The notes under the pieces are model-generated. The model was given only the letters and a program-made list of their open reading frames with translations. It did no database searches and had not been told where the DNA came from. From NCBI RefSeq assembly GCF_014279595.1, contig NZ_CP047943.1:496001-560000 (forward strand): 64,000 nucleotides of DNA. The letters are read 5' to 3'. The first letter of the stretch is position 1. The number at the start of each line of letters is the position of its first letter. The DNA is from Synechococcus sp. RS9909. GTDB taxonomy: Bacteria; Cyanobacteriota; Cyanobacteriia; PCC-6307; Cyanobiaceae. The translations under genes and the position numbers were made by a program. Positions 21,174-36,534 of this stretch are shown piece by piece.

Positions 21174-22271
21174 TCAGGCGTCCGCCTCGTTGCTGAGCGC
21201 TTCCAGCTTGGCCCGTTGCTCTTCGGCGATGCAGGCGCCGATCACCTCGTCCAACTGCCCCTCCAGCACGGGGTCAAGCCCGAAATTTCGACCGAGGCGG
21301 TGATCGGTGACGCGGTTGTCTTTGGCGTTGTAGGTGCGGATCTTCTCGCTGCGGTCGCCGGTTCCCACCTGGGCGCGTCGGGCCGAGCTCTCGCGGGCGT
21401 TGGCTTCGGCCAGCTGCCGTTCGTAGAGCTTGGCGCGCAGAATCTCCAGCGCCCGCTCCCGGTTCTGCAGCTGGGAGCGCTCCTGGGTGCAGAACACCCG
21501 GATGCCGGTGGGTTTGTGGAGCAGATCCACGGCCGTTTCCACCTTGTTGACGTTCTGGCCGCCGGCGCCGCCGGAGCGGGCCGTGCTGATCTCCAGCTCC
21601 GTGGGGTCGATCTGCACCTCCACCGGATCCGCTTCCGGCATCACCGCCACCGTCGCCGTGGACGTGTGCACCCGTCCCTGGGATTCGGTGGCCGGCACGC
21701 GCTGCACCCGATGCACGCCGGCCTCGAATTTCAGTTTGCTGAAGACGGCCTCACCCTTCACCGAGAGGATCAGTTCCCGGTACCCGCCGAGATCAGCGGC
21801 ATTGGCACTCACCGGTTGCACCGTCCAGTGTTGGCGTGTGCCATAGCGCTCGTACATGCGAGCCAGATCGCCGGCCCAGAGGCAGGCCTCATCGCCGCCG
21901 GCGCCGGCTCGGATCTCGAGCATCACACTGCGCCCATCGCGGGGATCCGTGGGGAGCAGCGCCAGGGTGAGTTGCTCGAGCAGTGCGCTGCGACGTACCT
22001 CGAGCTGATCCAGTTCCTGCTGCGCCAGCTCCTGCATGGCGGGATCCTCCCGGCTCTCACGCAGCAGCGCTTTCGCCTGGTCCCGTTCTGATTCCACCTG
22101 TTGCAGGCTGGCGAAATCCTGAACCAGCGGTTCGAGCCGGGATCGTTCCCGGGCAATCGTTTCCAGCCGCTTCGGATCAGCCGCCACATCGGGATCGGCC
22201 AGTTGCCGCTCGAGGTTGCGGAAGCTGGTGCTGGCCGCCTCAAGGCGGCTGATCAGGGTTGAGGTGTCCAT
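21174..22271 (-). CDS. prfA: peptide chain release factor 1
   Basis: RF1 ends translation at UAA and UAG. The 365-residue protein has the GGQ loop ([15 protein letters not shown], mid-protein) that triggers peptidyl-tRNA hydrolysis and the PAT tripeptide in [10 protein letters not shown] that reads the stop codon and marks it as RF1, not RF2. It is the last gene of the long minus-strand ribosomal cluster, 110 bases after rpmE, with a terminator-like hairpin between. Confidence 0.97.
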
Positions 22272-22296
22272 CCCTTCCGATCGGTGGGTGGTGATG

Positions 22297-22328
22297 AAAA
22301 ACCCCCAACCTCAGACTTCAGTCCGGGG
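22297..22328 (-). terminator. terminator-like hairpin between rpmE and prfA
   Basis: On the minus strand, CCCC (22325-22328) and GGGGG (22302-22306) can close around an inner GGAC/GTCT stem, followed by five T (22297-22301). A second perfect hairpin, GTCGCT-CCTG-AGCGAC, lies just upstream at 22342-22357. The outer stem is imperfect, so it may act as partial termination or attenuation before prfA. Confidence 0.4.
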
Positions 22329-22381
22329 CCGGGGGGGGAGAGTCGCTCAGGAGCGACGTTGGATTGTGATGCACTGAATGC

Positions 22382-22633
22382 TCAGGATTCAGTTGCAGCT
22401 TTCTTTTCGCCAGCGGCTTTGCCAGCACCACCCATGCCGTATTTGCGCATGAAGCGATCGACACGACCTTCCGTGTCGAGGATTTTCTGCGTACCAGTGA
22501 AGAACGGATGATTGCCGCTCCACACATCGACGTGAATTTCGGGCTGGGTGGAGCCAGTGGTCATCACCACTTCGCCATTGCAGATGACCTTGGCGTCGGA
22601 ATACCAGGTGGGATGGATGTCGGGCTTGGGCAT
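22382..22633 (-). CDS. rpmE: 50S ribosomal protein L31
   Basis: An 83-residue L31 that contacts the 5S rRNA region and bridges subunits. It begins MPKPDIHPTWYSDAKVICNG and has the conserved HPFFTGTQKILDTEGRVDRF core. It keeps only one of the four zinc-binding cysteines of the C+ form, so it is a zinc-free type. It is eight bases downstream of rpsI. Confidence 0.96.
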   Translation of the reverse strand: MPKPDIHPTWYSDAKVICNGEVVMTTGSTQPEIHVDVWSGNHPFFTGTQKILDTEGRVDRFMRKYGMGGAGKAAGEKKAATES

Positions 22634-22641
22634 GACGGAAA

Positions 22642-23046
22642 TCAGCGCTTGGAGAACTGAGGAGCTTTGCGGGCTTTCTTGAGGCCGTATTTGCGGCGTT
22701 CCTTGGCGCGGGGATCGCGGCTGAGATGGCCTTCCACCTTGAGGGGCTTGCGATTGTCGGCGGAGAGCTCGCAGAGGGCCCGAGCTGCGCCCTGCTTGAT
22801 CGCATCAGCCTGGCCGGTCAAGCCGCCGCCCCGCACGTTCACCAGAACGTCGTACTCAGTGGCGAGACCCAGGGTCTGGAGAGGAGCCTTGACCGCAGCC
22901 AGGTAGGCCGGGTTGTAGTTGAGGTAGTTGTCGCCGGGGCGACCATTGATGGTGATCGTGCCACTGCCGGGCACCAGACGGACACGGGCCACAGAGGTTT
23001 TGCGGCGACCGGTGCCCCAGTAGACGACGGAGTTGGACATGCTCAT
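22642..23046 (-). CDS. rpsI: 30S ribosomal protein S9
   Basis: A 134-residue S9 with [19 protein letters not shown] at the N-terminus, the [20 protein letters not shown] core, and the basic C-terminal tail ending FSKR, whose last Arg contacts P-site tRNA in the family. Its ATG overlaps the rplM stop as ATGA, so the two are coupled as in most bacteria. Confidence 0.98.
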
Positions 23047-23495
23047 TGGGCGGTGGCGGCGGGATCGAGCGCGAGGGGCTTGGGCTGCTGGGCGGCGTGC
23101 GGATGTTCGGCACCGCGATACACCTTCAGCTTGCGGAACAGCTGACGACCCAGGGCATTGTGGGGAAGCATGCCCTTGATTGCTTTCTCCACGATGCGCT
23201 CGGGGAGACGTTCCTGCAGGTGGGCGAAGGTTTCCACCTTCATGCCCCCGGGACGACCGGAATGGCGGCGATAGAGCTTGTCTTGCGCCTTATTGCCACT
23301 GACCCGAATCTTGTCGGCGTTCACCACGATCACGAAATCGCCGGTGTCCAGATGGGGGGTGTAACTGGCTTTGTTCTTGCCCCGCAGCACGGAGGCAACT
23401 TCTGTGGCCAGTCGACCGAGAGTCTGATTCTCAGCATCCACCAGATACCACTGGCGGTCGATCGAATCGATGGAAGGAACGGATGTCTTGTTCAT
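23043..23495 (-). CDS. rplM: 50S ribosomal protein L13
   Basis: A 150-residue L13, an early assembly protein of the large subunit. Family signatures are [37 protein letters not shown] and [18 protein letters not shown]. It is first of the rplM-rpsI pair. Its 157-base upstream gap carries two adjacent hairpins (23553-23600) that could be a leader element. Confidence 0.98.
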
Positions 23496-23552
23496 CGCGC
23501 CGGCATGCCGGTTCGGATATGCCCCACCTGAGCGGGCGGAGCTGGTCAGATG

Positions 23553-23600
23553 GAATCAGTTCACGCTGGCGTGAACTGATTCGAGCTCAAACAATGAGCT
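23553..23600 (-). promoter_or_regulatory. two adjacent hairpins upstream of rplM
   Basis: A 14-base perfect inverted repeat (GAATCAGTTCACGC at 23553-23566, complement at 23569-23582) with a two-base centre is immediately preceded on the minus strand by AGCTCA-5-TGAGCT (23584-23600). They lie 58-105 bases upstream of the rplM ATG and are not followed by a T tract, which argues against a simple terminator. They may be an L13-responsive leader, an RNase processing site or a DNA operator. Confidence 0.55.
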
Positions 23601-23652
23601 TACCTTGTGGTGGGTGTCCTCTTGAAGAGTGCCGAGCCTGCAAGGGGCGGAG

Positions 23653-24555
23653 TCAATTGATTCCCGGCAGCGGTGGTGGATCCGGTGGTGGATCCTGGCT
23701 TGCCAGAAAAAACCGCGGTTGACAATCATACCATCCGCCTTCTGTAAAAACTGGATCCGGATAGCCGGCGCGCAGTAGGCAGAGACCTTGCGGCGGGGCT
23801 GCTTCCTTCACCTCCTGGCGCCGCCGCTGCCGCCAGCGTTGTTCGAAGGCCTGCGGGTGGAGCCGATGCTCACCCACCGCCACCAGCTGACCCGTCAGCA
23901 GACGCACCATGCCGTAGAGAAAGCCACTGGCCTGGATCTCCAGGATCAGGACATCGCCCTGTCGCTCGAGGCTCACGTCCTGAACGGTGGTGCGGGCATG
24001 GGCCCGGCGGCTGCCGGCCCGCATGAAGGCGCTGAAGTCGTGGCTGCCGATCAAGCCGTCCAGGCCTCGGCGCATGGCGTCCTCGTCGAGACGGCAGTGG
24101 TACCGGTGCCAGCTCCAGGGGGCGAGGAAGAGGTTGGGCCGGCGTCCGTTGTAGATCGTGTAGCGGTAACGCCGATAGCTGGCGGAATGGCAGGCATGCC
24201 AGTGGAGGGGGCGTTCCACCGCTTCACGCACGCGGATCGTGCCGGGCAGGCGGCCATTCAGGGCTGGGGCCCAGCGTTGGGCCGGAATCGGTCCACAACA
24301 GTCGAAATGCACCACCTGCCCGGCGGCATGAACACCGGCATCGGTGCGACCGGCGGCGACAGCCTGCACCGGTCGGTGTGGATCGAGCGCGGCGATCGCC
24401 TTCTCCAGTTCACCCTGAACACTGGTGCCCTGGCGCTGGCGCTGCCAGCCGCAAAACGACGAACCCTCATACTGCACGCTGATGGCAATCCGTTGGATGC
24501 GGATGCCTTCAGCAGCAGACGAGGGTGACGATTCCGTGGACTCCGTGGGCTTCAG
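23653..24555 (-). CDS. truA: tRNA pseudouridine synthase A, probable CTG start
   Basis: TruA makes pseudouridine at positions 38-40 of tRNA anticodon arms. Catalytic Asp lies in [15 protein letters not shown], and [13 protein letters not shown] and [15 protein letters not shown] are conserved. From the first available GTG (24475-24477) the protein is 274 residues but lacks the first beta strand expected before QYEG. In frame upstream the codons read IRIQRIAIS, a good family match, back to the rplQ stop, with no ATG, GTG or TTG. A CTG at 24553-24555 overlaps the rplQ TGA as CTGA, mirroring the four-base overlaps elsewhere here, and would give 300 residues. ATC or ATT codons nearer the strand are alternatives. 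Function is certain, start is inferred. Confidence 0.9.
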
Positions 24556-24902
24556 ACCAATTCGATGATGGCCATTTCTGCATTGTCACCGCGACGGCGC
24601 ACGGTGCGGGTGATGCGTGTGTAGCCGCCCTGACGGTCGCCGTAGCGATCCTGCGCTTTGGAGAAGAGGGCATGCACGAGCTGCTTGTCGTACATGTAGC
24701 CGATGGCCCGGCGGCGGGAGGCGAGGCTCCCCTCTTTGGCCAGGGTGATCATCCGTTCGGCTTCGTCACGCAGGGCCTTGGCGCGGGCCTTGGTGGTGGT
24801 GACGCGGCCTTCGCGGATCAGCTGGGTGGTGAGGCCACGGAGCATGGCCTTGCGTTGGTCAGCCGGACGACCCAGCTGGGGAACTCGACATTGGTGACGC
24901 AT
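24552..24902 (-). CDS. rplQ: 50S ribosomal protein L17
   Basis: A 116-residue L17 with the start [20 protein letters not shown] and core [25 protein letters not shown]. It lies at the subunit surface near the exit tunnel. It follows rpoA by 37 bases in the alpha-operon order and its TGA is shared with the probable CTG start of truA. Confidence 0.98.
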
Positions 24903-24939
24903 GGTTCAGGCGCTGGGAGGGGAGAAAACGGGATGGGGG

Positions 24940-25878
24940 TCAGGCGCTGGTGCGGCTCTGAGGGATGGAGATGCCGATGCGCTCCAGCGCTTCGATCACT
25001 TCATCGGCCGACTTGGAGCCGAAGTTTTTGATCTCCAGAAGGTCTTCGTAACTGAAGCCCATCAGATCAGAGACGGAATTGACCTGAGCACGCTTCAGGC
25101 AGTTGTAAGCCCGAACGGAGAGGTTGAGTTCTTCAAGAGGAATCTGCGCCTCAGCCGAAGGTTCCGGCTCCAGGCCCGGCTCCTCCACCATGGTGACGGT
25201 GGCCAGGGGTTGGAACAGCTCAATCAAAAGATTGGCCGCCTGGGCGATCGCATCGTCGGGAGTGATCGACCCATCGGTGACCACTTCCATGCGGAGACGT
25301 TCCCGGGCGGAGCCACCCTCAGCGACAGCCGTTTCGTCAATCGAGAAGTTGACCCGCTGCACCGGCATGAACACGGCATCGATCTGAAGCAAATCGATCG
25401 CGCTGGTGTCTTCGTTGTGACGATCCACCGGGCGGTAACCGATGCCGCGCTCGACATGCACTTCCAGTTCGAGGCTGTGCCCGTCGCTGACCGTGGCAAT
25501 CGGCCGCTCCGGATCCACCACCTGCACCTGGGAGGAAAACTGCAGATCGCGAGCTTTCACTTCAGCGGGGCCGGCCACCACCAGGCGGCCGATCTCCAGC
25601 TCGCTGGTGCGGCTGTTGACGCTCAATTGCTTGCAATTGAGCAGAATGTCGAGGACGTCTTCCCGCACCCCGGGCACGGTGGCGTACTCGTGGTTGACCC
25701 CAGCGATGCGCACCGCGGTCACCGCACTGCCCTCCAGGCCACCCATCAGCACACGGCGCAGGGCATTGCCCAGGGTGGTGGCCTGGCCGCGTTCCAGCGG
25801 ACCGATCAGGAACACACCCGTCTGAGCGCGATCATCAGAGATCTGATGCTCGATACGGTCAATCTGGTATTGCAGCAC
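24940..25878 (-). CDS. rpoA: RNA polymerase alpha subunit
   Basis: A 312-residue alpha subunit that nucleates RNA polymerase assembly. The N-terminal dimerisation domain shows [20 protein letters not shown]; the C-terminal domain (from about 235) has [22 protein letters not shown] split over the helix-hairpin region used for UP elements and activators. The start is GTG at 25876-25878. It follows rpsK by 47 bases. Confidence 0.98.
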
Positions 25879-25925
25879 GGTCTGTAGCGGTGAAGAGCGA
25901 GGGAAGCCTGGTGATGAAACGTCGA

Positions 25926-26318
25926 TCAGACGCGGCGACGCTTGGGACGACGGCAGCCGTTGTGGGGCAAGGGGGTGACATCACGGATGAGCGTGATTTC
26001 CAGGCCGGCCACCTGCAGAGCCCGGATGGCAGTTTCACGACCTGAGCCGGGGCCGCGCACCAGCACTTCGATCTGTCGCATGCCCTGCTCGAGAGCACGA
26101 CGTGCCGCGGCTTCGGCAGCGGTCTGGGCGGCGAAGGGGGTGCCTTTACGGGCACCTTTGAAGCCGCTGGCTCCGGCGGAGGACCAGGAGATCACCTCAC
26201 CGGTGGTGTCGGTGATCGACACGATCGTGTTGTTGAAGGTGCTCTGGATATGGGCAACACCGTTGGGGACGTTGCGCTTGGCCTTCTTTGGGCCTGATTT
26301 TTTGGCGGGTTTGGCCAT
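25926..26318 (-). CDS. rpsK: 30S ribosomal protein S11
   Basis: A 130-residue S11 of the 30S platform. After a Lys-rich N-terminus it shows [21 protein letters not shown] and ends [10 protein letters not shown], both diagnostic. It is 77 bases after rpsM and precedes rpoA. Confidence 0.98.
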
Positions 26319-26395
26319 GGGCTGGGGCCTGGAGACGGGTGGGAGGGGATGACAGACAGCAGATCCGAGTCGGAGGAAGACTCAGCCTCTGCGGA

Positions 26396-26761
26396 TTACT
26401 TCTTCTTGCCGGCGACGGTCTTGCGGGCACCACGGCGCGTGCGGGCGTTGGTGCGGGTGCGTTGACCGCGAACCGGAAGGCTCATGCGGTGACGACGACC
26501 GCGCAGACAACCAATGTCCTGAAGGCGCTTCAGGGCCATGCCCTCCTGTCGTCTCAGGTCACCCTCGATGGTGTAGGCCTCAGTGGCACCGCGCAGTTTC
26601 TGCACATCTCCGTCATCGAGATCCTTGACGCGGATGTCGGGATTGACACCGGTCTTGGAGAGGATGGTGCGGGCCCGGGTGGGTCCGATTCCGTAGATGT
26701 AGGTGAGGGCGACTTCGATCCGCTTGTCGCGGGGAATGTCGACACCAGCAATCCTTGCCAC
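26396..26761 (-). CDS. rpsM: 30S ribosomal protein S13
   Basis: A 121-residue S13 of the 30S head that contacts P-site tRNA. It has [28 protein letters not shown] and the C-terminal basic tail [19 protein letters not shown] hairpin at 26789-26810 lies just upstream, between rpmJ and this gene. Confidence 0.98.
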
Positions 26762-26788
26762 TGAGCGATCAAACGAGGGGGACAGAAA

Positions 26789-26810
26789 GGTCCGCCCTGT
26801 GGGCGGATCC
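26789..26810 (-). promoter_or_regulatory. hairpin in the rpmJ-rpsM gap
   Basis: Minus-strand GGATCCGCCC and GGGCGGACC pair over nine bases with a single bulged A around an ACA loop, followed by TTTC. It is compact and stable but has a poor T tract. It may slow transcription, protect the mRNA or be a ribosomal-protein target. Confidence 0.4.
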
Positions 26811-26868
26811 GTTGGGGCTGGGGTGGGATCTGCGGCTGTGAATCAGCCATCAGTCCAGCAGCTGGGCT

Positions 26869-26982
26869 TCAGCCCTGACGCTGCTTGTGCTTGGGGTTGG
26901 TGCAGATCACCATGACCCGGCCGTGGCGGCGAATCACACGGCACTTCTCACACATTTTCTTGACCGAGGCGCGCACCTTCAT
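26869..26982 (-). CDS. rpmJ: 50S ribosomal protein L36
   Basis: A 37-residue protein read from the ATG at 26980-26982 to the TGA at 26869-26871. It begins [19 protein letters not shown] and keeps the zinc site CxxC, then Cys and His in [11 protein letters not shown], the C+ form. It lies 51 bases after adk, so there is no room for infA, which sits here in some cyanobacteria. Confidence 0.97.
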
Positions 26983-27033
26983 GGGGTGTGGCTCTCCAAA
27001 ATTCCAAACAGCTAACCTATCACAACGACCTGA

Positions 27034-27591
27034 TCAAGCCCCTTGAAGGGTGGCTTCAATCCGCTTGGTAATCGCCTCGATGCTGCCCTGCGCTTCCACC
27101 GAGCAGAGCAGACCCTGTTGACGGTAGAAGTCGATCAGGGGTGCTGTTTTCTCCCGGTAGACCTCCAGCCGATGGCGGATCACGGCTTCGGTGTCATCGG
27201 CCCGGCCGCGCGCCAGCATGCGCTCGATCAGCACGGCATCATCGAGCTCGAGGAGTAGCACCGCTTCGAGGGGTTGTTGGAGTTCCGCCAGCAGCGGGGT
27301 GAGGGCTTCCGCCTGGGCCACCGTGCGAGGAAATCCGTCGAGCAGCCAACCGCCTGTGCTGAGGCGGCCGAGCTGGCCTTTCACGATCGCCAAAACCAGC
27401 GCATCACTCACCAGTTCGCCGCGGTTCATCACCGCTTCAGCTTCCTGTCCTAGGGCGGTTCCGGCGGCCACCTCCGAGCGCAGCAGATCGCCGGTGGAGA
27501 GATGCTGCATGCCATGGGCGGCACACAGTCGGGCCGCCTGGGTGCCCTTGCCGGCGCCGGGAGGGCCGAGGAAGAGGAGCCGTTGCTTCAT
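27034..27591 (-). CDS. adk: adenylate kinase
   Basis: Interconverts AMP plus ATP with two ADP. The 185-residue protein has the P-loop GPPGAGKGTQA at residues about 8-18, AMP-site TGDLLR, and WLLDGFPRTVAQA. The lid is the short form (ARGRADDTEAV) without zinc cysteines, which explains the length. It is placed after secY in the spc region, as in many bacteria. Confidence 0.97.
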   Translation of the reverse strand: MKQRLLFLGPPGAGKGTQAARLCAAHGMQHLSTGDLLRSEVAAGTALGQEAEAVMNRGELVSDALVLAIVKGQLGRLSTGGWLLDGFPRTVAQAEALTPLLAELQQPLEAVLLLELDDAVLIERMLARGRADDTEAVIRHRLEVYREKTAPLIDFYRQQGLLCSVEAQGSIEAITKRIEATLQGA

Positions 27592-27646
27592 GGTCGAGAC
27601 GAGAATTCTGGAAATGGATGCGGCTGCCTGGTGGGCCAGGCGGGGG

Positions 27647-28966
27647 TCACTGGCGCACGAGGCCTTCGTAACGCTGTGAGATCACATAGGTCTGCACCTG
27701 CTTGGCGGTGTCGATCGCCACGCCCACCAGGATCAGCAAGGACGTGGCCCCAAGGCCCTGGAAGGTGGTGACGCCCGTGGCCCTTTCGACGGCCGACGGA
27801 ATGATGGCCACCGCCCCAAGAAACAGACCACCCAGCAACGTGAGTCGGTTCTGGACGCCAGAGAGGTAAGCCGCCGTTGCGCTGCCGGGGCGTACGCCTG
27901 GAATGGCGACGCCTCCTTTCTTGAGGTTGCTGGCGATGTCGGTGGGATTGACGGTGAGTGAGGCGTAGAAATAGGCGAAGCCGAGGATCAGGGCGAAAAA
28001 GAGCAGGGCATAGGGCCAGGGATTGGCCGCGCTCGGATTGAGGGCACTGGCGGCTCTGATCAGGAGCGGGTTTTTGGTGACGTTGGCGATCGTGAGTGGC
28101 AGGAAGATCAGCGCGGAGGCAAAGATGATCGGCATCACGCCACCGGCATTGAGCTTCAGGGGCAGATAGCTCTGGCGACTGGGCAGCAGGGCTGTGCCAC
28201 CCACCTGGCGTTTGGCACTCACGATCGGCAGGCGTCGGGCTCCCTCCTGCACAAAGATGATCCCCACGATCGTGACCAGGAACACGAGCACCAGCACGAT
28301 GATGCCCACCACATCGTTGCGGTCACCGGTCTGCGCTTTCTCGATCGTGGCTCCGAGGGCCTGGGGCAGGGTGGCCACAATGTTGAGGAAGATCACCAGG
28401 GAGGCGCCCTGACCGATGCCCCGTTCGGTGATCACTTCGCTGAGCCACATCACCACCATCGAGCCTGTCACGAGCGCCAGGGCGGTCTGCACGACGAACA
28501 CGGTGTCGCTGAGACCCTCCACCGCGTACTGCCGCAGGATCATCGCGAACACGATGCTCTGGATCAGGCCCCAGCCCAGGGCCACATACCGGGTGATCTG
28601 AGCAATCTTGCGTCGGCCCGCTTCCCCCTCATTCTTCTGGAGATCCTCGAGTTGGGGCAGGGCTGCGGTGAGCAGTTGCAGGATGATCGAGGCATTGATG
28701 AAGGGCAGGATGCCCAGGGCGAAGACGCCCAGGGTCGAGATGCCGCCCCCGGTGAAGATGTCGAGGAAGCCGATCAACTGCCCTCCCTGCTGCAGAAACT
28801 GCTGGAAGGCGACCCGGTCGATGCCCGGCATGGGGATGTAGATCCCGAGGCGCACCAGCATGAGCAGGCCGAGCGTGGTGAGCACCCGGCTGCGCAATTC
28901 CCTGTTCTGCACCAGCTGGGTGATCACCTCTCCGGCGCTGGGATTGCGTCCCCGACTGACGAACAT
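27647..28966 (-). CDS. secY: protein translocase subunit SecY
   Basis: The channel-forming subunit of the Sec translocon, serving both plasma and thylakoid membranes in cyanobacteria. From the ATG at 28964-28966 (MFVSRGRNPSAGEVI) it has 439 residues and ten predicted helices; an in-frame ATG 33 bases upstream adds unrelated residues. Signatures include GIYIPMPGIDR, the plug region around GGGISTLGVFALGILPFINASII and EGARRLPIVSAKR in the cytosolic loop. A terminator-like hairpin separates it from rplO. Confidence 0.98.
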   Translation of the reverse strand: MFVSRGRNPSAGEVITQLVQNRELRSRVLTTLGLLMLVRLGIYIPMPGIDRVAFQQFLQQGGQLIGFLDIFTGGGISTLGVFALGILPFINASIILQLLTAALPQLEDLQKNEGEAGRRKIAQITRYVALGWGLIQSIVFAMILRQYAVEGLSDTVFVVQTALALVTGSMVVMWLSEVITERGIGQGASLVIFLNIVATLPQALGATIEKAQTGDRNDVVGIIVLVLVFLVTIVGIIFVQEGARRLPIVSAKRQVGGTALLPSRQSYLPLKLNAGGVMPIIFASALIFLPLTIANVTKNPLLIRAASALNPSAANPWPYALLFFALILGFAYFYASLTVNPTDIASNLKKGGVAIPGVRPGSATAAYLSGVQNRLTLLGGLFLGAVAIIPSAVERATGVTTFQGLGATSLLILVGVAIDTAKQVQTYVISQRYEGLVRQ

Positions 28967-28997
28967 GGATGAATGGATGTGGAGTGGGCTGAATGCC

Positions 28998-29034
28998 AAA
29001 AAGCCGTCCGCAGACCGTAGTTCCGCGGACGGCT
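28998..29034 (-). terminator. terminator-like hairpin between rplO and secY
   Basis: On the minus strand AGCCGTCCGC (29025-29034) and GCGGACGGCT (29002-29011) form a perfect ten-pair stem around a 13-base loop, followed by T residues at 28998-29001 that continue the T ending the stem. It sits 38 bases after the rplO stop and 32 bases before the secY ATG, inside the cluster. It fits an intrinsic terminator or attenuator that lowers expression of secY and downstream genes relative to ribosomal proteins. Confidence 0.7.
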
Positions 29035-29071
29035 CAGACCTTAGATCTGCACTGACGACTGCGGTGCGGCC

Positions 29072-29524
29072 TCAGTCGAGCAGTTCACAGCTGCCACCGG
29101 CGGCTTCGATCTTGGCGCGGGCGGAGGCGGTGAAGGCCGCAGCCTGCACGGTGAGTTTGGCCTTGAGTTCACCGTTGCCGAGGATCTTGAGGGGATGCTT
29201 CGGGCTGGTGACGATGCCGTCCTTGACCAGGGAGTCGAGGTTGACGGTGCTGCCGGCTTTGAGCTCGTTGAGGGCCGAGACATTCACCACCGTGAAGAAC
29301 TTGGGGTTCACCAAGGGGAAGTGCTTCAGCTTGGGCACCCGGCGGTAGAGGGGCATCTGGCCACCCTCAAAACCGGGACGGGTGGGACGACCGGAGCGGG
29401 ATTTCTGGCCACGCATGCCGAAGCCGCAGCTGGCGCCCTGGCCTGCGGCAATGCCACGGCCTTTGCGCAGTTTGCGGCGTCGCGCGCCTTTGTTGGCCTG
29501 GAGAGAGTCGAGTCGGAGGGTCAT
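29072..29524 (-). CDS. rplO: 50S ribosomal protein L15
   Basis: A 150-residue L15 with the Gly- and basic-rich N-terminus [20 protein letters not shown] and the globular C-terminus ending in [18 protein letters not shown]. It directly follows rpsE by six bases; rpmD (L30), found between them in E. coli, is absent as is usual for cyanobacteria. Confidence 0.98.
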
Positions 29525-29530
29525 CGGGAA

Positions 29531-30175
29531 TCAGGAATAGATCTGCTCGAGGGAGATCCCCCGTTCCTTGGCGGTCTCCTTGTGGGTGCGGAGCGCTTCG
29601 AGGGCCACCATGGCAGCCCGGGCGTTGTTGAGGGGGGTTTTGCTGCCGAGCCGTTTGGCCAGCACGTTTTTGATGCCAGCCAGTTCCAGCACCGTGCGGA
29701 TCGAGCCGCCCGCAATCACGCCGGTACCGGGAGCGGCGGGGCGGATCAGCACGCTGGCCGCACCATCGCGACCATTGGACAGGGTGGGGATGGAGTTGTG
29801 GCGGGTGAGGGGCACCTTGACCAGATGCTTCTTGCCGTCGGCCACGCCCTTGCGCACGGCACCGATCACATCACCGGCCTTGCCGACACCGACGCCCACC
29901 TGACCGCGCTCGTTGCCGACCACGACGATGGCGCGGAAACTCATTTTCTTACCGCCTTTCACGGTCTTGGAGACGCGGCGGATCTGCACAACGCGTTCTT
30001 GCCATTCGGAGTCACGCTCCTGGTTCCGGCGATCGCCGCGACGGCCGCCACCACGGCGGTCGCGGTCGCCCCGGCCACCACCACGGCGCTGCTCCTGCTG
30101 GCCTTCTGCCGCTGCAGGAACATCGGACGCCGCCGGGATGTCGTTGGGGTTGGTCTGGGGGGTTGATTCGGTCAT
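29531..30175 (-). CDS. rpsE: 30S ribosomal protein S5 with RG-rich N-terminal extension
   Basis: S5 of the 30S decoding region. Residues about 60-214 are the conserved S5 body ([60 protein letters not shown]). The first 60 residues are a disordered extension, first acidic-polar, then rich in Arg, Gly and Asp (about 30-55). Total length 214 exceeds the roughly 165 of E. coli. The extension may bind rRNA or partners. Confidence 0.97.
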
Positions 30176-30188
30176 GGTGAGAGCAGGG

Positions 30189-30557
30189 TCAGAAGTGCAG
30201 GCCCGCTTCCCGGGCGGCGTCGGCCAGGGCTTTCACCCGACCGTGATACAGGTTGCCGCCGCGATCGAAGACCACCTGTTGGATTCCTTTGGCGAGGGCA
30301 CGCTTGGCCACCAGCTCACCGACGGCAATGGAAGCATCGCAGCTGCTGCCATCGGCCTTGAGGCTGGTGCGCAGATCCTTGTCGAGCGTTGAAGCGGAGC
30401 AGAGGGTGCTCTGGGCCTCGTCGTCGATGACCTGGGCGTAGATGTGATTGTTGGAGCGGAACACCGCCAGCCGGGGACGATCGGCGGAACCGCTGAGATG
30501 ACGACGCAGGCGCCGGTGGCGCTTTTGCGTCTGCTGTTTGCGGGAGGAGGTTGACAT
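30189..30557 (-). CDS. rplR: 50S ribosomal protein L18
   Basis: A 122-residue 5S rRNA-binding L18 with [23 protein letters not shown] split by the family pattern and ending [26 protein letters not shown] in the expected way. It lies between rplF and rpsE. Confidence 0.97.
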
Positions 30558-30590
30558 GGTGAGGGTTGCGGAAGGTGATCTGGCAGGGGC

Positions 30591-31130
30591 TTATTTCTTG
30601 CCCGACTTACCGGCCTTGCGCAGGATGCGCTCGCCCGCATATTTGATGCCCTTGCCCTTGTAAGGCTCGGGTGGACGGATGGCGCGAATCTTGGCGGCCT
30701 CGTTGCCCACCAGCTCCTTGTCGCTGCCGGACACGGTGACGTTGGTGTTGTTCTCCACCGCAAACGTGATGCCTTCGGGCGGAACCATCTCGATCGGATG
30801 GCTGTAGCCGGCGCTGACCACGAGGGTTTTGCCTTTCACCTGGGCGCGGTTACCCACGCCGACGATCTCCAGCTTTTTCGTGAAGCCGGTGCTCACGCCC
30901 TCGACCATGTTGGCCACCAGGGTGCGACAGAGGCCATGCCGTTCCCGTGACTTGCGCTTCTCGCTGCTGGGAGCCACAACCAGGGTGTTCTCTACCTGGC
31001 TGATGGTCACACCATCGGGCAGGGTGCGTTTGAGTTCGCCCTTCGGGCCCTTCACGGTGACGGCGAGTCCATCGAGGCTCACGCTCACCTTGTCGGGAAT
31101 GGGGATGGGGGATTTACCGATACGAGACAT
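30591..31130 (-). CDS. rplF: 50S ribosomal protein L6
   Basis: A 179-residue L6 near the factor-binding site. It starts [19 protein letters not shown] and has the C-terminal motif [20 protein letters not shown] that is diagnostic. It follows rpsH by 15 bases. Confidence 0.98.
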
Positions 31131-31145
31131 AGTTCTGGCTCCGGA

Positions 31146-31547
31146 TCAATAGACGTAGCAGAGCACTTCACCGCCCACACCCTGTTTACGGGCATCGCGG
31201 TCGCTCATCACACCTTTGGAGGTGGAGATGATCGCCACCCCAAGGCCACCGAGCACCTTGGGCAGGCCTCGGGTGTTCTTGTAGATGCGTAGACCAGGCT
31301 TGCTGACGCGCTGCATGGAGCGAATCGTGGGCTGGCGGTGCTTGCCGCTGTACTTGAGTTCAAGGACGAGATGGGTTTGAACACCCTCGCCTTCCTCACT
31401 GATTTCAGCGATGAAGCCTTCCTGTTGCAACACCTTGGCGATGCTGCGGGACATCCGGGAGGCCGGAACTTTGGTGGATTGGTGACGCTTCTCACTCGCA
31501 TTGCGAATGCGAGTGAGCATGTCGGAAATAGGGTCGTGGTTGGCCAT
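31146..31547 (-). CDS. rpsH: 30S ribosomal protein S8
   Basis: A 133-residue S8 that organises the 16S central domain. It begins [17 protein letters not shown] and ends with [20 protein letters not shown] and CYVY, both typical. It follows rplE by 18 bases; rpsN, between them in many bacteria, is not here. Confidence 0.98.
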
Positions 31548-31565
31548 GGTGGGTCCGAGGGGGGC

Positions 31566-32105
31566 TCAGTTGCTGCGGAATGGCATTCCCATCTCGCGGA
31601 GGAGGGCCCGGCCCTCTTCATCCGTGCGGGCAGTGGTCACGATGGTGATGTCCATGCCCCTGATGGCGTCGATCTTGTCGAAGGAGATCTCCGGGAAGAT
31701 GATCTGTTCCCTCACCCCCAGGGTGTAATTGCCACGTCCGTCGAAACTCTTGGGGCTGACGCCGCGGAAGTCGCGGATCCGGGGCAGCGCCAGGTTGATC
31801 AGACGCTCCAGGAAGGCATACATCCGTTCACCGCGCAGGGTCACAGCACAGCCGATCGGCATGCCCTGGCGGATCTTGAAACCGGCGATCGCTTTCTTGG
31901 CACGGGTGACCACCACTTTCTGGCCGGTGATCTGTGCCAATTCGCTCACCGAAGCTTCGAGGGCCTTGGCGTTCTGGGCGGCTTCGCCGAGTCCCCGGTT
32001 GACGGTGACCTTCACCACCTTGGGAACTTCATGGATGTTGGAGAGACTCAGATCCTTCAGCAATTTGGGCTGAATGGTCTCCCGGTAGCGCTGTTTGAGT
32101 GACAT
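31566..32105 (-). CDS. rplE: 50S ribosomal protein L5
   Basis: A 179-residue 5S rRNA-binding L5 with [38 protein letters not shown] and [21 protein letters not shown] small hairpin (CTTCTG-8-CAGAAG, 32122-32141) lies in the 49-base gap upstream after rplX. Confidence 0.98.
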
Positions 32106-32154
32106 GGCTGGGGATAGGGGACTTCTGGGCTTGGTCAGAAGACGGGACGGGTGA

Positions 32155-32511
32155 TCAATCGATCACTTCGCCGGTTTTCTTGAGACGACGTTTTTTGGTG
32201 CCGTCTTTTTCGGTCACCATCTCGACACGGCTGGCGACCTTCTGGCTGGTGGAATACAGCATCACGTTGGAGGCGTGCAGAGACGCTTCTTCCGTGACGA
32301 TCCGGCCAGACTCACCCTCCTGGGTGGGTTTGACGTGACGGGTGCGCAGGTTGATGCCCTGGACCACGACACGGTTTTCATAGGGCAGGGTGCGGAGCAC
32401 TTCACCTGTTTTGCCCTTGTCCTTGCCGGAGATCACCTGCACGGTGTCGCCTTTGCGCAGCCGCATCTTGATGCGCTGGCTGCTGCTGGATTTGGGAGTT
32501 GCTGTTGCCAT
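32155..32511 (-). CDS. rplX: 50S ribosomal protein L24
   Basis: A 118-residue assembly-initiator L24 with the KOW motif [20 protein letters not shown] and [18 protein letters not shown]. It starts one base after the rplN stop. Confidence 0.98.
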
Positions 32512-32512
32512 C

Positions 32513-32878
32513 TCAGATCACCTCCGGGGCGAGGGAGACGATTTTGGTGAAGTTGCGCTCGCGCAGCTCACGCGCCACAGGACCGAAGACGCGGGTTCCG
32601 CGAGGATTGTTGTCGGCGTTAATGATCACCGCTGCGTTGTCATCGAAACGGATCGAGTTGCCCGTGTCGCGACGCAGGGTGGCTTTGGTGCGCACCACCA
32701 CAGCCTTGACCACATCCGACTTTTTCACGCCCATGTTGGGCATGGCGTCCTTGACGGCGGCCACGATCACATCGCCCACGTGGGCGTAGCGACGGTTGCT
32801 GCCCAGAACGCGGATGCACTGGATGCGTTTGGCGCCACTGTTGTCAGCGACGGTGAGGAATGTTTCCTGCTGAATCAC
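32513..32878 (-). CDS. rplN: 50S ribosomal protein L14
   Basis: A 121-residue L14 of the subunit interface with [20 protein letters not shown] and the C-terminal [23 protein letters not shown] split over the family signature. Its ATG overlaps the rpsQ stop by four bases. Confidence 0.98.
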
Positions 32879-33195
32879 TTCGACACCTCCTCTTGGGCGG
32901 CTTCGGCCCTGGCGGCACTGGCTTCGGCCTTGGCGGCTTCCGTTTCCGCCTTGGCACTGTGGCTGAGCACTTCGGCGATGGCCCAGCGCTTGTGGCGACT
33001 GAGCGGGCGGGTCTCGGTGATCCGAACCCGGTCGCCGACGCGACAGCTGTTGTCTTCGTCGTGAGCCTTGTAACGGGTGGTGCGGCTCACCGTCTTCTTG
33101 TAGATGGGATGGGGGAAGCGGTTCTCCACCGCCACCACCACCGTTTTGTCCATCTTGTCGCTGACGACGGTGCCGACCCTTTCCTTGGTTGCCAT
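32875..33195 (-). CDS. rpsQ: 30S ribosomal protein S17 with Ala-Glu C-terminal tail
   Basis: S17 body occupies residues about 1-80 ([40 protein letters not shown]). It continues into a helical tail of about 25 residues rich in Ala, Glu and Lys, making 106 residues against about 84 in E. coli. The tail may be a coiled or disordered extension. It overlaps rplN by four bases. Confidence 0.97.
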
Positions 33196-33215
33196 GTCTG
33201 GTTCTCCTTAGGGGA

Positions 33216-33425
33216 TCAGGAAGCGGCGGAGCGCTGGCGCTCCGCTTGCACCGTCAACAACTGGGCCAGCTTGATGCGGCTTTCCTTGAAACGGTGCGTG
33301 TTGGTCAGCTGGCGCGTGGCTTGCTGAAAGCGCAGGTCGAACAGCTCGCGGCGCAGGCCATTGATCTGTTCGGTGATGTCTGCGTCGGTGAGCTGGCGCA
33401 GCTCGGATGCATTAGGGCGTGCCAT
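33216..33425 (-). CDS. rpmC: 50S ribosomal protein L29
   Basis: A 69-residue L29 at the exit-tunnel rim, with two helices and the signature [19 protein letters not shown]. It starts two bases after the rplP stop. Confidence 0.97.
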
Positions 33426-33427
33426 CG

Positions 33428-33904
33428 TCAGGCCTCCACGGTTGCGCTGGACGCAGCCTTGGCATCACTGCCTGAGGCGGCGCTCTCCTGGTCGTCCAGG
33501 GAGATGAACTTGGTTTTCACGGGCAGCTTGTATTGCGCCAGGCGCATGGCTTCCCGGGCGATGGATTCGGTGATTTCCGCACCACCCATTTCAAACAGCA
33601 CCCGCCCCGGCTTGATCACAGCCACCCAGAATTCCGGGTTGCCCTTACCGGAGCCCATGCGGGTTTCGGCGGGGCGCATCGTGATCGGTTTGTCGGGGAA
33701 GATCCGGATCCAGATCTTGCCGCCACGCTTGACGTGGCGGGTCATGGCGCGACGACTGGCCTCGATCTGGCGCGAGGTGATCCAGCCGCACTCCTGGGCC
33801 TGCAGTGCGAACTGACCGAAGGCAATCGTGTTGCCTCGGGTGGCGACGCCGCGCATGCGGCCGCGCTGCTGCTTGCGGAATTTGACGCGTTTTGGACTCA
33901 GCAT
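33428..33904 (-). CDS. rplP: 50S ribosomal protein L16
   Basis: A 158-residue L16 at the A-site tRNA elbow. It begins [19 protein letters not shown] and has [20 protein letters not shown]. The C-terminus is about 20 residues longer than E. coli and ends in an Ala/Ser-rich tail. Confidence 0.98.
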
Positions 33905-33920
33905 GGTTCAGGCCTCCTGT

Positions 33921-34652
33921 TCAACCCTCGTTGGAGCGGTCTTCGAACTGTTGGGGCCTGCGACCGGCCCGCCGCCGTGGGGTTGCGCCCACCGGCAGTT
34001 GCTGACGGGCTTCATCCCCCAGCACTTCCCCTTTGAAGACCCACACCTTGATGCCCAGCACCCCATAGGTGGTGCTGGCCACTTTGGTGGCGTAGTCGAT
34101 GTCGGCACGCAGGGTGTGCAGCGGCACGCGCCCTTCACGCGTCCACTCGGTCCGGGCGATTTCGGCGCCGTTCAGGCGACCGCTCACCTGAATTTTCAGG
34201 CCGAGCACGCCAGCCCGTTGCGCCCGCTGCACCGCCATGCGGATGGTGCGGCGGAAGGCCACGCGCTTCTCCAGTTGCTGGGCGATGTACTCGGCCAGCA
34301 GGAAGGCGTCGGCGTCCACACGCTCCACTTCCACCACGTTGATCCGCACCTGACGGCTCAGATCACCCACGGTTTTCTGGATGCCGCTGCGCAGCTCCTC
34401 GATGCCGCTGCCCTGGCGGCCCACCAGCACGCCAGGGCGTGCGGTTTTCAGTTCCACTTCGAGCTGGTCGGCTTTGCGGGCGATCAGCACTTCGCTGATG
34501 CCGGCGGCGCCGTACTTCTTGTGGATGAACTTGCGAATCCGATCATCTTCTTGAAGAAGGGTCGGATAATTGCGGCTGGAGGCGTACCAGCGTGACCGGT
34601 GCTCCTGGGTGATCCCCAGGCGTAAGCCGGTTGGATGGATTTTGTGTCCCAT
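33921..34652 (-). CDS. rpsC: 30S ribosomal protein S3
   Basis: A 243-residue S3 at the mRNA entry. It starts [20 protein letters not shown] and includes the KH domain ([16 protein letters not shown]) and [19 protein letters not shown]. The last 30 residues are a variable basic tail. It lies 16 bases upstream of rplP. Confidence 0.98.
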
Positions 34653-34671
34653 CAGTCGGTGTGCTCGGGGG

Positions 34672-35037
34672 TCAGGAGTCGGTCGGAGCTGCCACAGCGA
34701 TGCTGATGTGGCAGGTCTGCTTCTTGATCGCGTAGGCGCGACCCTGGGCGCGGGGCCGATACCGCTTCATGGACGGGCCCATGTCGGCGCTCGCCTGGGC
34801 GATCACCAGCGTGGAGGGGTCCAGGCCCAGGTTGTGCTCGGCGTTGGCGACCGCCGACCGCAGCACCTTGGTGATCGGGCCGGTGGAGCGGTAGGGCATG
34901 AACTCGAGCATGATCAGCGCGTCGCGATAGCTGCGACCGCGGATCTGATCGAGGACACGGCGCACCTTGGACACCGAACCGCGGATGAAGCGGCCATGGG
35001 CCCGGGCGGTGGGAGCCGTTGGGGATGACGTTGTCAT
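34672..35037 (-). CDS. rplV: 50S ribosomal protein L22
   Basis: L22 lines the exit tunnel with its long beta hairpin. The ATG at 35035-35037 ([20 protein letters not shown]) gives 121 residues; the frame is open 60 bases further, but that would run into the rpsS stop region and lacks similarity. Core motifs: [17 protein letters not shown] and [18 protein letters not shown]. Confidence 0.96.
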
Positions 35038-35041
35038 GGTC

Positions 35042-35317
35042 TCAGCGGCCTCCTTTCTTGTCTTTGATGTGGCCCTTGAAGGTGCGGGTGGGGGCAAATT
35101 CCCCCAGCTTGTGACCCACCATCTGCTCGGTCACGAAAACCGGCACGTGGGTTTTGCCGTTGTGAACGGCAATGGTGTGGCCGATCATCATCGGCAGGAT
35201 CGTGGAGGCCCGAGACCACGTTTTGATCACCGACTTGTCGTCGGCGGCATTTTGCTTTTCAACCTTGCGAAGCAGGCTGTCGGCGATGAAAGGGCCTTTT
35301 TTGAGTGAACGTCCCAT
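35042..35317 (-). CDS. rpsS: 30S ribosomal protein S19
   Basis: A 91-residue S19 of the 30S head with [20 protein letters not shown] and [20 protein letters not shown]. It is four bases upstream of the rplV start. Confidence 0.98.
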
Positions 35318-35352
35318 GGCGGGTTAGGCGAACGGCAAAACGGTGATGTGCA

Positions 35353-36216
35353 TCAGGAGTCGCGTCCGCCACGGCTCCGCTTGGACGTCTTGCGACGCTT
35401 CCGGAGGACGAACTTGTTACTCGGCTTGTTCCGCTTGCGGGTCTTGAGACCAAGAGCGGGTTTGCCCCAGGGGGTCACCGGGCCGGAACGGCCGATCGGG
35501 GCCCGGCCTTCACCACCACCGTGGGGGTGGTCGCAAGGGTTCATCACACTGCCGCGCACCTGGGGACGACGACCCAGCCAGCGACGACGACCGGCCTTGC
35601 CCAGGCTGGTGTTGCGGATCTCCGAGTTGCCCACTTCGCCGAGGGTGGCGTAGCACTCCCGTCGGACCAGCCGAACCTCGGTGGATGGCAGTTTGAGAGC
35701 GACATAGTCGCCTTCCTTGGCCATCACCTGGGCACTGGCGCCAGCGGTTCGCACCATCTGGCCACCGCGACCGGCATAGAGCTCGACGCAGTGCACGCTG
35801 GAACCGAGGGGAACCGCCGAAAGCGGCATGGCGTTGCCGTTCTCGATCGGTGCTTCCGGACCGGAGACCACGGTCTGGCCCACGGTCACACCCGCCGGAG
35901 CAAGGATGTAGCGCTTCTCGCCGTCGGCGTAGAAGAGCAGAGCCAACCGCGCATTCCGGTGGGGGTCGTAATGGATGGCGGCCACCTTGGCGGGCACGCC
36001 GTGCTTGTTGCGCCGGAAATCGACGGTGCGATAGAGGCGCTTGTGACCGCCGCCGCGATGACGGCAGGTGATCACACCGCGGTTGTTGCGACCCTTGCGG
36101 CGGTGCTTGGACACCACCAGGGACCGTTCCGGCTTGCGGCCGGTGACTTCACTGAAGTCGGTGACGACCCGGGTGCGGGTTCCGGGCGTATAGGGGCGGA
36201 AAGTACGAATTGCCAT
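35353..36216 (-). CDS. rplB: 50S ribosomal protein L2
   Basis: A 287-residue L2 needed for subunit joining and peptidyl transfer. It contains [20 protein letters not shown] and the C-terminal [20 protein letters not shown] loop whose His is important in the family. It lies 15 bases after rplW. Confidence 0.99.
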
Positions 36217-36231
36217 GACGTTTCAGACCCC

Positions 36232-36534
36232 TCAGGACTCAGGGAAGAGTTGGATGGAGTTGCCCTCGGCCAGGCGCACCACCGCCTTCTTCACCTGGGC
36301 GCGTTTGCCGGCGAAGCGACCAACGCGGCGACTGCGGCGAGGCGGATTCATGGTGCTGATGCCGGTGACCTTCACATCGAAGAGCTGCTCAATCGCAGCT
36401 TTGATGTCGGGCTTGGCCGCACGGTGATCCACCTCAAAGGTGTACTGGTTTAGTTCCAGGGCACGGGTGGCTTTTTCAGTGATCAGCGGGCGGCGAATCA
36501 CATCGGCCAGACGTTCGGTGAAGCGCTCAGTCAT
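36232..36534 (-). CDS. rplW: 50S ribosomal protein L23
   Basis: L23 at the tunnel exit, docking site for trigger factor and SRP. The ATG at 36532-36534 ([20 protein letters not shown]) gives 100 residues and overlaps the rplD stop by eight bases; an in-frame start 39 bases upstream is less likely. Signature: [18 protein letters not shown]. Confidence 0.97.

Follow-up and report, generated by a model that had tools for sequence, protein, structure and literature searches.

The S10-spc-alpha cluster of Synechococcus sp. RS9909 (host genome 2.6 Mb, single contig) is encoded on the minus strand of the 64,000-nt stretch of DNA analyzed here, hereafter the window. Within it, rplO (50S ribosomal protein L15; 29072–29524, minus strand; TIGR01071, E 7.4e-45) lies upstream of secY (27647–28966, minus strand; TIGR00967, E 4.6e-128), and the 105-nt gap between the two genes (28967–29071, minus strand) holds a stem and a short box. 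In minus-strand order the sequence reads ...GATC TAAGGT CT GAGCCGTCCGCGGA ACTACGG TCTGCGGACGGCTT TTTGG.... The box, TAAGGT (29038–29043), is one form of a TANNNT motif conserved in relatives' copies and represents a putative -10 element. The 5' arm of the stem, GAGCCGTCCGCGGA (29022–29035), the 7-nt loop, ACTACGG (29015–29021), and the 3' arm, TCTGCGGACGGCTT (29001–29014), follow on the same strand; the arms are supported by pairing, folding, and covariation, and the loop by folding. A run of five Ts (28998–29002, minus strand) completes the element. The extended stem also takes in the first two of these Ts as paired bases, and the length of the run varies by genus. The predicted start of a secY transcript is the G at 29030 (minus strand), which is preceded by C and is invariant in 56 of 56 aligned copies.

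At the core of the stem, AGCCGTCCGC (29034–29025) pairs uninterrupted with GCGGACGGCT (29011–29002) over 10 bp, and weaker end pairs extend it to 14 bp (29035–29022 with 29014–29001). The first-pass annotation had described a ten-pair uninterrupted stem and T tract between rplO and secY at 28998–29034; both the structure and its coordinates proved exact, on the minus strand. The two hallmarks of an intrinsic terminator, a stable GC-rich stem and a U tract, are present in the window: the 14-bp stem alone folds at -25.9 kcal/mol, and TTTTT lies directly 3' of it. A 116-nt minus-strand fold has a z score of -2.88, with 2 of 200 shuffles equally stable. On the plus strand, 8 of 200 shuffles are as stable as the native fold. 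That strand has no T tract behind the stem, so the signal is one-way, from rplO toward secY.

This is the strongest stem of the ribosomal cluster. Among cluster gaps of at least 15 nt, just one other combines a T run with a GC-rich stem of 8 bp or more. This gap lies before prfA, where a GC-rich hairpin with TTTTT (22302–22335, minus strand) forms an ordinary terminator for the end of an operon; members of the genus do not share its stem. The truA-rplM gap carries a perfect 13-bp hairpin, GAATCAGTTCACG-CCAG-CGTGAACTGATTC (23553–23582, minus strand), with no T tract. Across 464 kb of the genome, with gaps defined by crude gene calling, we counted 49 stems (at least 8 bp, at least six G-C pairs) in co-directional or convergent gaps. 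At least five Ts stand behind 5 of the 49, the rplO-secY stem included, and this stem alone has a TANNNT box 3–5 nt in front of it (1 of 49). A mechanical terminator scan did not list it. Likewise, Rfam covariance models (cmscan, positions 22000–36500) gave no match to the stem and one sub-threshold hit elsewhere, and identity with an Rfam RNA or a known ribosomal-protein leader was rejected accordingly.

Conservation of the stem in Cyanobiaceae

Relatives' gaps were drawn from 80 loci of a named collection, 30 of a family search, one further locus, and 120 fetched stretches. These 231 loci, one of which (L080, without rplO) was dropped, yielded 194 distinct rplO-secY gaps. The stem is found in all but seven of the 103 distinct gaps whose Cyanobiaceae locus exceeds 50% GC (96 copies) and in 0 of 91 low-GC gaps (mostly Prochlorococcus). 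The count of 96 copies follows removal of a spurious low-GC copy (L109), correction of four anchors, and addition of four copies by hand. Six of the seven GC-rich gaps without the element are only 28–31 nt long, and the seventh (L146) retains the 5' arm alone. Overall, the element spans 15 labeled genera; among more distant cyanobacteria, it is absent from the 18 same-class gaps inspected.

Pairing is maintained in 95.7% of 559 cells for the ten core pairs of 56 non-redundant copies, whereas slid partners pair in only 34.5–51.3%. Compensatory changes in relatives, which the first-pass annotation had named as a check on the stem, were found: 6 of the 10 pairs show changes on both sides (36 cells versus a shuffle mean of 10.3), and 0 of 500 shuffles reached as high. 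Examples are GCAGTCC/GGACTGC in L110, GTCGTCC/GGGCGAC in L182, and GTCTG/CAGAC in L085. The mean folding energy of the full stem over the 56 copies is -26.5 kcal/mol. A covariance model built from the copies has one match in the RS9909 genome (E 5e-10), followed by the same palindrome on the opposite strand and two matches at chance level; it finds a match in 95 of 151 family genomes, and the second match present in 6 of those 95 is either the palindrome on the other strand or weak. We rejected a dispersed repeat because the stem is practically single-copy per genome. The element is a conserved, terminator-like RNA hairpin common to marine and freshwater Synechococcus-type cyanobacteria.

Several variants were observed in the same gap. 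In loci resembling Synechococcus elongatus (L243 and L244) it contains an unrelated stem (GGGGCAG..CTGCCCC), perhaps a convergent boundary signal. Genus g37 (L186, L203, L212) features a second terminator-like hairpin, for example ACCCCACCAGC..GCTGGTGGGGT in L203, which immediately precedes the conserved element. One low-GC Prochlorococcus locus (L018) has kept CTAAAGTCTCAGCC, which resembles the box and the first stem bases, while the stem is gone. Finally, in g1 and g5 copies only, and judged by eye, GGTCTGA could pair with TCAGCC before secY.

The T run and the TANNNT box

The T run is far more variable than the stem it follows. At least five Ts occur in 42 of 96 distinct copies, and at least four fall within 8 nt after the stem in 85 of 96. 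By genus, the run is 8 in g19, 4–7 in g45, 6 in nine of ten g10 copies, and 5–6 in g31, g47, and g59; it is 3–5 in g1 (the genus of the window), 3 in g35, 2–3 in g5, and 1 in eight of nine g6 copies. Because the tract ranges from one to eight Ts by genus, termination strength is not conserved, and the stem persists in genera where a long run is gone. The terminator in the prfA gap, at the cluster end, served as a control (17 of 30 fetched loci examined, with the upstream gene of the gap presumed). Here, members of the window's own genus have unrelated stems, and the seven g5 loci examined have no hairpin with a T run. Judged by this control, a stem that outlives its T run appears unusual.

Copies were anchored on the stem, and the box played no part in their selection. 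TANNNT (TAAGGT or TAGGGT) stands just before the stem, at a constant spacing, in 78 of the 96 distinct copies. In the non-redundant set it is present in 48 of 56, with a spacing to the invariant G of 7 nt in 47 and 6 nt in one; the chance of TANNNT at one position is approximately 0.005. Information content is low upstream and rises sharply at the box. Its constant letters are the three spelled out in TANNNT, and the third position is free (A in 23 copies, G in 27, T in 5, and C in 1; n = 56). The GG inside it is also well conserved, more than a plain -10 needs, and TAAGGT and TAGGGT match only three of the six letters of TATAAT. One candidate, the box as a mimic of 23S rRNA CCUAAGGU, was dropped, as the box varies to TAGGGT, TATGGT, TAATAT, TAGTGT, and TAGCGT.

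The box is absent while the stem stays in 18 of 96 copies, which comprise, in the labeled set, all of g35, most of g6, the one g48 copy, and one of three from g37. Every run of at least five Ts belongs to a copy that has the box (42 of 78 such copies versus 0 of 18 lacking it; one-sided Fisher 0.003 in the non-redundant set, a value that ignores kinship).

The 6S RNA gene provides a yardstick for promoters in the genus. TAAATT or TAGATT precedes it in 12 of 12 loci inspected, out of 13 genus loci (L304 was omitted owing to its position close to the end of a contig), and the conserved 6S RNA begins 6–7 nt after that box. Yfr1, sought by its motif as a second yardstick, was matched in 0 of 14 genomes. 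No -35-like excess was found upstream of the rplO-secY box (2.27 versus 2.57 matches in shuffles; n = 30). Since a strong -35 consensus is reported to be absent in S. elongatus and MED4, as is normal for cyanobacteria (PMC3219970), this result does not exclude a promoter. We infer that TANNNT is a putative -10 element like that of the 6S RNA promoters, and a conserved box of this kind right before the stem suggests that secY has its own start.

In low-GC Prochlorococcus gaps, there is no general TANNNT excess at the matching place (12 of 30 versus 16.0 expected). Across 15 pattern and position tests, only TA[AG]G.T at 66–80 nt from the ATG was clearly above shuffles (4 of 30 versus 1.0; 7 of 500 shuffles as high). 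With a single such result among 15 tests, we claim no support for persistence of the box in these genomes.

Readings of the element

We consider the chances about even that the element is compact punctuation where the ribosomal-protein operon gives way to secY. In this reading, the 5' arm of an intrinsic terminator, which would be strong or weak depending on the genus, coincides in part with the region in which a secY promoter starts transcription. Polymerase arriving from rplO would transcribe the whole stem, which would form directly against the T tract and cause a partial stop. Polymerase at the internal promoter would instead start inside the 5' arm. Transcription usually starts approximately 7 nt after a -10 element, and the 6S RNA distance of 6–7 nt agrees, which places the predicted secY start at G 29030. 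RNA begun there would be missing GAGCC, one side of the stem's bottom pairs beside the T tract, so what remains of the stem would end 3 nt short of the Ts and no stop would follow. In folding, this shortened stem averages -17.2 kcal/mol versus -26.5 kcal/mol for the full stem, and in 54 of 56 copies an interval of 3 nt separates it from the T tract. Termination needs a stem close to the U tract. As the full stem reaches it and the shortened one does not, the same DNA would stop read-through and spare its own transcript; escape of the internally started RNA is plausible in this model. Expression of secY and the genes behind it would come from their own promoter together with any read-through that gets past the stop. 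We infer all four parts of this scheme: a working -10 at TANNNT, a start at 29030, termination by the full stem, and none by the shortened stem. More tentatively, and with the odds somewhat against it, a promoter nested in its own terminator may act as a one-way filter against transcription from the ribosomal operon, kept through much of the Synechococcus/Cyanobium radiation and tuned in each genus by the T run.

A local secY promoter has precedent. In Synechocystis 6803, rpl15 is the last gene of an 18-gene ribosomal operon, and a separate transcription start site is reported for secY (PMC3925133), which by analogy supports a local promoter in cyanobacteria. An operon that ends at this gene and a secY start of its own would be common to both cases, though the account of this boundary in PMC3925133 describes no arrangement in which the start overlaps a hairpin. 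A 31-ORF ribosomal transcript is reported in S. elongatus (PMC3219970), so the rplO/secY boundary may not be universal.

These observations bear on the function that the first-pass annotation had assigned to the stem, namely to split the supply of ribosomal proteins from that of SecY, Adk, and RpoA, or to control it through attenuation. The terminator-like conserved RNA structure stands, but the proposed function is not supported as stated: a run of at least five Ts is limited to the 42 copies noted above, the stem persists without a T tract, the -10-like box suggests an independent secY start, and a separate start is reported in Synechocystis.

An explanation along the lines of the first-pass annotation, rather unlikely yet the likeliest of the alternatives, is a plain partial intrinsic terminator or attenuator within one long operon that has no local promoter; it would reduce the output of secY, adk, and rpoA compared with that of the ribosomal proteins. 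The stem and five Ts of the window fit it, as does the number of copies with at least four Ts in 8 nt (85 of 96), which is near the U-tract criterion for 3' ends in S. elongatus (PMC13289151); partial terminators that set stoichiometry have also been described in that species (PMC3219970). It leaves unexplained the fixed TANNNT box and the conserved sequence of a stem whose prfA counterparts are unrelated even within a genus, and the separate secY start reported in Synechocystis (PMC3925133) also speaks against it.

We likewise regard as improbable a sequence-specific RNA element, in which the stem binds a protein, either an RNase or a ribosomal protein, and thereby governs how the rplO-secY transcript is processed, how stable it is, or how it is translated; the T tract and box would be secondary. 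In its favor, the stem sequence GCCGTC is conserved beyond the needs of termination and, unlike the prfA terminator, persists in genera without the box and a long T run. Neither the loop nor the upper stem is conserved in sequence or length, however; no Rfam family matches; and L110, among other copies, has a different stem sequence through paired changes. Conservation of the stem may also be inertia, because change needs two mutations.

That the fixed box is a non-promoter motif, such as a site of transcription-factor binding or of processing immediately 5' of the stem, has very little probability: the conserved GG would fit, but a constant TA and final T around a variable position 3 form the pattern expected of a -10, and similar boxes precede 6S RNA. 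A chance palindrome in GC-rich DNA, for which the plus-strand shuffles give some room, is barely credible given compensatory conservation over 15 labeled genera.

Relation to known systems and significance

Rho is absent from cyanobacteria. In S. elongatus, canonical intrinsic terminators are reported at the ends of only 22% of transcription units, and higher U content gives less read-through (PMC13289151). The rplO-secY stem resembles cyanobacterial intrinsic terminators in its 10–14 bp GC-rich stem, the Ts that follow at once, and its intergenic place. It differs in a stem sequence conserved between genera, a T run of one to eight, and an overlapping -10-like box. Terminators inside cyanobacterial operons lower downstream expression (PMC3219970). 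Incomplete ones, as in the phycocyanin operon described there, similarly comprise a stem between co-directional genes whose upstream products are needed in larger amounts, but the rplO-secY stem has a promoter-like box directly in front.

A 2005 comparative RNA screen of four marine strains gives an rpoBC attenuator and an rplKAJL terminator (PMC1242208). The rpoBC leader/attenuator of rplKAJL-rpoBC (cluster 245) is likewise a conserved structure that parts ribosomal-protein genes from a non-ribosomal essential gene, although at another locus. The rplO-secY element is absent from Table 1 of that study, and we found no report of it in article texts of the open-licence PMC literature, which is a weak absence.

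In summary, a conserved, putative stop/start element within an essential cluster offers a natural series of T runs, from one to eight, on one stem. It suggests how compact genomes could keep ribosomal proteins apart from the genes for protein secretion and RNA polymerase, an idea that can be tested. If the start inside the stem is true, the element would also be a ready-made insulated promoter part.
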